A stretch of 64,000 bases of DNA, from positions 1-64,000 of the forward strand of contig CALDYY010000056.1 in assembly GCA_937944245.1 (NCBI GenBank). Reading direction: 5' to 3'. Position 1 is the first letter of the stretch. Each line of letters starts with the position of its first letter. Shown in pieces: positions 43,928 to 47,560 of the stretch. A model generated the notes under the pieces. It made no database searches, was not told the DNA's origin, and saw only the letters and a list, made by a program, of their open reading frames with translations. Both the position numbers and the translations under genes were made by a program. The DNA is from an uncultured Saprospiraceae bacterium. Its GTDB lineage: Bacteria; Bacteroidota; Bacteroidia; Chitinophagales; Saprospiraceae.

Positions 43928-44542
43928 ATGTTTATGACAAAACTAAAATGCCATATGTCTAGCATAAAAACCATTCGTAGTTATATTGGGGACAATCGCC
44001 TTGAAGAGGCTATCGAACAGTTGATAGCGCTACTAGAAAATGAGGATATTTGCTATGATTTGTATGACCAAACGCTAGTGCAAAAAAGTAATTGGAACAA
44101 CTATGTGCATAAAGACCGATTAAATATTGCAAAGAAGGAAGATTTGGATGTGGTAATTGCCAAATTGCTTGATATTTTACGCACCTATGAAAAGCGAAAA
44201 AAAGAACCACCTGTTAGTCCTATTTCTTCTATCCCAACTCAAAGTCCAACACCTCCTCAACGACAGCCTGCTCAACAAACACCTCGTTATGTTGCACGTT
44301 GCTTTTTTTATAATGATATGAATGCTTATTATGTATTGGAGGATAATCAAGTGGTGATGTTTAATGCAGTAACCAACCAATCTATGATAGTGGCAATGCG
44401 CACAATGCCTATGTTGGCGGGCTATTCATGGAGTTATCAGTTTACCGATGGCAGGTATTACAGTGTAGATGGACAAGGTGCAATTTGGGGAATTAATTTC
44501 TATGGTTTACCCATGCAAGTGGGATATGTTCAATATTTGTAA
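43928..44542 (+). CDS. Predicted effector-associated domain (EAD11-like) protein with Pro-rich linker and beta-rich C-terminal domain
   Basis: N-terminus IKTIRSYIGDNRLEEAIEQLIALLENEDICYDLYDQTLVQKSNWNNYVHKDRLNIAKKEDLDVVIAKLLDILRTYEKR; then PPVSPISSIPTQSPTPPQRQPAQQTP; then RYVARCFFYNDMNAYYVLEDNQVVMFNAV.... Confidence 0.6.
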   Translation: MFMTKLKCHMSSIKTIRSYIGDNRLEEAIEQLIALLENEDICYDLYDQTLVQKSNWNNYVHKDRLNIAKKEDLDVVIAKLLDILRTYEKRKKEPPVSPISSIPTQSPTPPQRQPAQQTPRYVARCFFYNDMNAYYVLEDNQVVMFNAVTNQSMIVAMRTMPMLAGYSWSYQFTDGRYYSVDGQGAIWGINFYGLPMQVGYVQYL

Positions 44543-45200: not shown

Positions 45201-46862
45201 TTATATCTTTTCCATAACTTTTTTTGCTTGTTCGATAGCTTCTGAAATGGTAGATTTTATGTTGTCTTCTCCAAGTAATTTACCAATTTCACTTTTTTGG
45301 AATGATTTTTTAATCTCTTCATTAATTCCGGAAATAATAATGCTTGTACCTTTTTGCTTTAATTGATGACAAGTAGTTTCTAGCCTATGTAAACCAGTGG
45401 CATCAACGAAAGGCACATTGCGCATCCTGATAATGAGCACTTTAGGTTGTTGGTTAAGATCGGTAAGCACTTCTTGGAATTTTTGAGCAGCACCAAAAAA
45501 TAAAGGACCATTTATTTCATAAAGCAATATATCTTTTGGCAGTTTTGGAATTTCATCCTCAAACAGCGTCTCTCTATCGTCATCTTCTTTAAAAGGATTG
45601 TGGACAGATGTAGCCTCACTCATGCGTTTCATAAAGATAAAGCTCGACAAAATCATACCAATTTCGATAGCCAAAATTAAATCAAAAAATATAGTGATAA
45701 AAAAAGTAGTTAACAAAACAACAACATCTAGGCGCTCGCCTTTCATTAGCGAAAAAAAGTGTTGCCACTCCCCCATATGCCAAGCCACCACGACTAAAAT
45801 ACCTGCCAAACAAGAAAGTGGAATCAATTTAGCTACGGGTGCCAGTAAAAGCATTATCAAGAGCAGTACAACAGCATGAACCATACCAGCGATAGGTGTT
45901 CTACCTCCATTTTTGATATTAGTAGCCGTTCTAGCAATAGCTCCAGTTGCGGGAATACCGCCAAAGAGGCCTGAAAAAATATTGGCTATACCTTGCCCAA
46001 TTAGCTCTGTATTGGAGCGATGTCGGCTACCAATCATACCATCCGCTACAACAGCGGAAAGTAAGGATTCTATGCCACCTAGTACCGCAATAGCAATGGC
46101 AGGTTGCAGCAGTTGTTGGATGATAGCAAAGTTAATTCTGGGGAAGCTAGGTAAAGGAATACTGTTAGGAATGGCACCAAATTTAGTTTCGATGGTTTCC
46201 ACAGGAAGTTTAAAATAATAAACAATCAACGTGCTTAATAAAATGGCTACTATCGAGCCAGGTATTTTTGGGCTAATCCGATAAAAATTTAAGGAAATGA
46301 TTACGGTACTTATGGCGATGACAAAAGCAGTCCAGTTTACTTTACTAAAATTATTAAAATAAGCTATCCACTTTTCTATGAAATCAGCAGGTAAATCGCC
46401 CATAGTTAAGCCGAAAAATTCCTTTATTTGAGCAGAGAAAATAATAATAGCAATACCACTCGTGAACCCTACGATGAGTGGATAAGGCACAAATTTTAAA
46501 TAATTTCCTAATCGCGCCAATCCCATACCTACAATAATAAAGCCTGCCATAAACGTAGCTATGGTCAGACCTTGAATGCCGTGTTCTTGTACAATACCAT
46601 AAACAATAACGATAAAAGCCCCTGTTGGTCCACCTATTTGTACTCTAGTACCACCTAATAGAGAAATCGTGAAACCTGCTATTATTGCTGTAATCAAGCC
46701 TTTTTCAGGCGAAACTCCCGAAGCAATGGCAAAAGCAATCGCCAAAGGCAAGGCAACAATACCGACAATAGTACCCGCTATAATATCCTTGACAATTTGC
46801 TCTCGTTTAAAACCTTCTTTGGCAAGTGTAAAAAACTTTGGTACAAATTCAAACTTCTTCAT
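45201..46862 (-). CDS. SulP family inorganic anion/bicarbonate transporter with STAS domain
   Basis: GTIVGIVALPLAIAFAIASGVSPEKGLITAIIAGF, LGGTRVQIGGPTGAFIVIVYGIV; C-terminal STAS domain. ORF track start 46868 is TTG; ATG at 46862 preferred. Confidence 0.93.
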   Translation of the reverse strand: MKKFEFVPKFFTLAKEGFKREQIVKDIIAGTIVGIVALPLAIAFAIASGVSPEKGLITAIIAGFTISLLGGTRVQIGGPTGAFIVIVYGIVQEHGIQGLTIATFMAGFIIVGMGLARLGNYLKFVPYPLIVGFTSGIAIIIFSAQIKEFFGLTMGDLPADFIEKWIAYFNNFSKVNWTAFVIAISTVIISLNFYRISPKIPGSIVAILLSTLIVYYFKLPVETIETKFGAIPNSIPLPSFPRINFAIIQQLLQPAIAIAVLGGIESLLSAVVADGMIGSRHRSNTELIGQGIANIFSGLFGGIPATGAIARTATNIKNGGRTPIAGMVHAVVLLLIMLLLAPVAKLIPLSCLAGILVVVAWHMGEWQHFFSLMKGERLDVVVLLTTFFITIFFDLILAIEIGMILSSFIFMKRMSEATSVHNPFKEDDDRETLFEDEIPKLPKDILLYEINGPLFFGAAQKFQEVLTDLNQQPKVLIIRMRNVPFVDATGLHRLETTCHQLKQKGTSIIISGINEEIKKSFQKSEIGKLLGEDNIKSTISEAIEQAKKVMEKI

Positions 46863-46864
46863 TT

Positions 46865-47560
46865 TCAATTAATTATCTTCACCTTTCCTGTTTCTATATC
46901 AAATAGTGCGCCAACAATTCTTAATTTTTTGTTTTTTACTAATTCTGCTAGTATTGGCTCGGAATACTTTAAAGTGTTAACAGCATGTACAATATTTGCA
47001 TTTATTGCTTTTTCATAATAGTCTATATCAGCGTCATTTAATTCAGCTTCCTCTGGTTCTGATTGAATACAATCAATAATTTTTTGAATGTGATCTTCGG
47101 TATGGTGATGATGATGTTTTGCCTCAATAAAAGCCCCAACTGCGCCACATTAGGTATGTCCTAGTACCACCACTAATGAGGTGTGCAAATGCTCAACAGC
47201 ATATTCTACGCTACCAATTTCATAATCGCTAACAATATTTCCAGCATTTCTAATGACAAATAAATCACCAAAACCTTGATCAAAAACTAATTCTGGCGGT
47301 ACTCTGGAGTCAGAGCAACCTATAACCACCGCAAAAGGATGTTGTCCCTTTTCCAGAGTTTGTATTCGTTGCACACTTTGATGAGGATGAACAGAATGAT
47401 GATGCACAAAACGTTCATTACCAGCTATTAGTAAGTTTAATTCATCTCTATTTACAGTTGATTCAAGTGCTTTTTCCTGCATTCGATTACAGTTGGAAAA
47501 CAGAATAAGCAGGCTTAGTGTCCAAATAAATTGATTAAAAATAAAAGTCATTTTTTTCAT
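46865..47560 (-). pseudogene. Beta-carbonic anhydrase interrupted by in-frame TAA at 47150-47152
   Basis: Upstream ORF contains GCSDSRVPPELVFDQGFGDLFVIRNAGN and ends VVVLGHT-stop; the same frame continues CGAVGAFIEAKHHHHHTEDHIQKIIDC...LKNKKLRIVGALFDIETGKVKIIN to TGA at 46865. The frame is otherwise intact. Confidence 0.85.

Follow-up and report, generated by a model that had tools for sequence, protein, structure and literature searches.

A single in-frame TAA interrupts a beta-carbonic anhydrase gene next to a SulP transporter gene in a Saprospiraceae genome, probably as a recent nonsense mutation

Introduction

In-frame stop codons under purifying selection have been reported to be widespread in functional bacterial genes, and the reported cases are stops common to two or more genomes (PMC7918605). 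Carbonic anhydrase (CA) can also be wholly absent, as in Symbiobacterium thermophilum (PMC13098186). The locus described here lies in a 64,000-nt stretch of DNA (the window) from an uncultured Saprospiraceae bacterium, and its interrupted frame has two beta-CAs, 2a5v (the best match) and 1ym3, as its nearest solved relatives. The original prediction described the gene as a beta-CA with one in-frame TAA and a terminal TGA two nucleotides before the ATG of a SulP gene, and the reading frame bears this out.

Results

A single beta-CA frame of 231 codons plus TGA runs along the minus strand (47560-46865), with one internal stop. The features of the locus are:

46865-47560, minus strand: beta-CA gene, interrupted once; Pfam PF00484 in both halves, 2a5v matched at E 1.3e-31
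47150-47152, minus strand: in-frame TAA at residue 137, with T as the next base; a sense codon stands here in 134 of 134 aligned homologues
47153-47560, minus strand: upstream fragment of 136 aa with a signal-like N-terminus and CxDSR ... GHT, the would-be truncated product
46868-47149, minus strand: downstream fragment of 94 codons without stop or frameshift and without an in-frame ATG, GTG or TTG
45201-46862, minus strand: intact SulP anion transporter (Sulfate_transp and STAS), 553 aa from its ATG, immediately downstream of the CA gene

The frame translates from its ATG through VVVLGHT, the stop and CGAVGAFIEAKHHHHH to KVKIIN, and the terminal TGA occupies 46867-46865. Both halves match PF00484 separately and in register (E 1e-24 over profile positions 1-63 and 2.4e-11 over positions 65-156), each above the cut-off when taken alone, which indicates one gene rather than a chance resemblance. 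When the stop is read through, the full frame reaches 149 bits over profile positions 1-156; the domain match in each half and this overall score confirm the predicted beta-CA identity. The zinc ligands Cys, His and Cys and the Asp-Arg dyad are all encoded in the DNA (GCSDSR ... GHT, stop, CGAV), but the TAA precedes the second Cys and no complete frame places all the ligands in one protein. As predicted, the stop replaces the variable residue x of HTxCGAV and falls between the His and second Cys ligands. The suggestion of a lipoprotein signal held only in part: a Cys follows the hydrophobic N-terminus here and in most close homologues, but the residue at -1 is Asn (LFSNC), which is not a canonical lipobox. 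Just past the zinc site, 47090-47119 (minus strand) encodes a His-rich KHHHHHTEDH where most close homologues have a gap and the closest one, L032, has KHD--KLDSH. No second copy of the region was found in this genome.

To place the stop among relatives, the gene was compared with 134 homologues from the same bacterial family and from other phyla, the best of which shares about 56% identity and none of which comes from a strain of the same species; one scan of genome contigs likewise returned no close relative. The codon comparison proposed in the original prediction gave a clear result: none of the 134 homologues has a stop at position x, where 13 different residues occur, most commonly Ser, His, Arg, Glu, Gln, Gly, Asn and Lys. 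The stop is thus not conserved, and a conserved recoding site was rejected on this count. Stops do occur inside the frames of some relatives, outside the aligned domain wherever this was checked. The predicted ancestral codon AAA (Lys) stands as one option only, since the nearest homologues carry Ser (L032, about 56-58% identity), His (L078, about 52-54%) and mostly Glu (L033-L043, about 42-49%). The closest homologue, L032 (56%), belongs to another genus, and the beta-CAs of the three congeners are all more distant (34-41%); these identities point to either horizontal transfer or a differential loss of paralogues.

In this genome TAA is a normal stop signal and ends 18 of the 32 long frames in the window. 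A scan for interrupted genes over 724 kb of the genome, consisting of 40 contig stretches and the window, found this site alone to have coding-like sequence of one frame on both sides of a stop and no start codon in the next 90 nt; in the other 15 candidates a start codon follows the stop within that distance, as it does between neighbouring genes. As the sole such break in 724 kb, the site indicates a genome that is neither recoded nor rich in breaks, and a change of the genetic code was rejected both for this reason and for the use of TAA at the ends of ordinary genes. Among the 30 tRNA genes found, a list that lacks some expected isoacceptors and may be incomplete, none has the UUA anticodon that would read UAA.

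The age of the stop was gauged from the divergence of the two halves. The ratio of downstream to upstream divergence is 1.30-2.06 between this gene and six homologues and 1.31-2.10 among intact homologues, and this equality makes the stop young compared with the divergence from every relative examined. Judged by sequence divergence, the stop therefore appears recent on the scale that separates these homologues, in agreement with the young event originally proposed. Its age is bounded only by the split from L032, since the comparison covered no genome of the same species and the beta-CAs of the congeners are more distant. Conserved positions are violated at 3 of 51 sites upstream and 4 of 20 downstream, but intact homologues show the same downstream excess, and a reading of these counts as greater change downstream was dismissed because intact homologues are alike in their divergence ratio. 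Older decay was rejected, the downstream half having no excess divergence, which is also what one would see if the break were very young. The argument that an intact downstream half speaks against an old pseudogene survives in this form, but not on the lack of further stops, which is weak evidence because random substitution at 5% would leave the 94 downstream codons free of stops about 60% of the time (59%).

A search of the whole 3.8 Mb genome found no beta-CA other than this frame to serve as a backup, and no alpha-CA. On contig C90, an intact gene for a protein of 170 residues (L175:1357-1869, minus strand) is a candidate gamma-CA, with many gamma-carbonic anhydrases among its named relatives. 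Its sequence holds IIHC ... VGHRAIVH, which we take to be a three-histidine pattern like that of the gamma class. The protein scores 150 bits against the NCBIfam gamma-CA cut-off of 250, and from its sequence gamma-CA activity is plausible. Six of 60 relatives gave no match to the beta-CA query. Contig C102 of the congener G003 carries a decayed remnant of a beta-CA gene (L004:2226-2445), which shows both a stop and a frame change. It lies some 130-340 bases downstream of a closely similar beta-CA gene that is intact, an arrangement that looks like the loss of a tandem copy. Together with the CA-less Symbiobacterium thermophilum, the gamma-CA candidate, the relatives without a match and the G003 remnant make loss of the gene plausible. 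The candidate and the congener's decayed copy suggest that such loss is tolerable in this group, and the original view that losing the enzyme would matter is weakened by these two and by the six relatives without a match.

A SulP gene is found near the CA gene in at least 20 of 134 homologue loci, many of which were available with flanks of 1.5 kb only. The SulP protein of the window falls below the NCBIfam cut-offs for both BicA (285 against 880) and DauA (512 against 614). It is reasonable to regard CA and SulP as a shared inorganic-carbon operon, in which these scores do not fix the substrate of SulP. Elsewhere in the window, 43928-44542 (plus strand) encodes a 204-aa protein with EAD11 (PF19964), an effector-associated domain of the adaptor type, at its N-terminus.

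Discussion

The causes listed in the original prediction (nonsense mutation, sequencing error, subpopulation variant and readthrough) are upheld as a list, and among them a recent nonsense mutation that has turned a working beta-CA into a young pseudogene, a null allele of this strain, is the probable one. The stop is alone, it is absent from all homologues compared, the downstream half is coding and normally diverged, and TAA terminates other genes. If the organism itself carries this base, translation would end after residue 136, giving a product that lacks the second zinc-binding Cys as well as the C-terminal portion of the fold and is presumably inactive as a carbonic anhydrase. Downstream, the SulP gene would remain intact with its own start codon, and the loss may be made tolerable by the gamma-CA candidate or by a transporter. 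Against a null allele count the absence of decay proper to the downstream half and the fact that, with a single genome known from its assembly only, an error in base calling or consensus would look identical.

That the TAA is an artefact of base calling, assembly or consensus, or a variant within a mixed population whose cells mostly carry an intact gene, is a distinctly less likely explanation, though one to be taken seriously. It accords with a single substitution in an otherwise undamaged gene of a draft assembly of 147 contigs, and with the normal constraint on the downstream half. However, there is no homopolymer at the site, and the lack of any further break in 724 kb indicates that such errors are rare in this assembly.

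Readthrough yielding low levels of full-length enzyme is possible in principle and improbable here, where it has no positive sign. Nearly any residue would be acceptable at x, judging from the 13 tolerated in homologues; the downstream half is intact, and in-frame stops under purifying selection are reportedly widespread in bacteria (PMC7918605). However, no relative has this stop, no tRNA among those found reads UAA, and the published cases rest on stops in at least two genomes. Moreover, UAA followed by U is a strong terminator. Still less credible is the particular case in which the stop is real, fixed and peculiar to the species and readthrough there throttles the sole beta-CA of the genome without abolishing its function. 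A split enzyme, formed by the 136-aa fragment and a separately translated downstream fragment, would suit the sequence character kept in both halves but is very unlikely and was rejected together with re-initiation, as no in-frame ATG, GTG or TTG occurs on the way from the stop to the SulP gene (the first lies at least 267 nt past the stop, near the SulP boundary) and the ATG that overlaps the stop in TAATG opens another frame that ends after 8 codons.

Preferring the nonsense mutation, we note that the finding looks like an ordinary one, namely a recent gene-breaking mutation, or else a sequencing error or strain variant, and not a special decoding signal. Its significance beyond this genome is little; if reads confirm the stop, it would be one more loss of a beta-class CA from a lineage with a gamma-class enzyme retained.

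Compared with described systems, the gene shares CxDSR, RxAGN, GHxxCGA and the PF00484 match in both halves with the beta-CAs represented by 2a5v and 1ym3, and differs from them by the one TAA at x of HTxCGAV, so that a complete product is not expected. The placement of SulP two bases downstream of CA resembles a BicA-like CA-SulP arrangement, whereas the SulP protein here scores below the BicA and DauA cut-offs. Similarly, the stop is like those of PMC7918605 in being a single nonsense substitution with coding character kept on either side, but in contrast to those stops, each found in two or more genomes, it is seen in one genome only.
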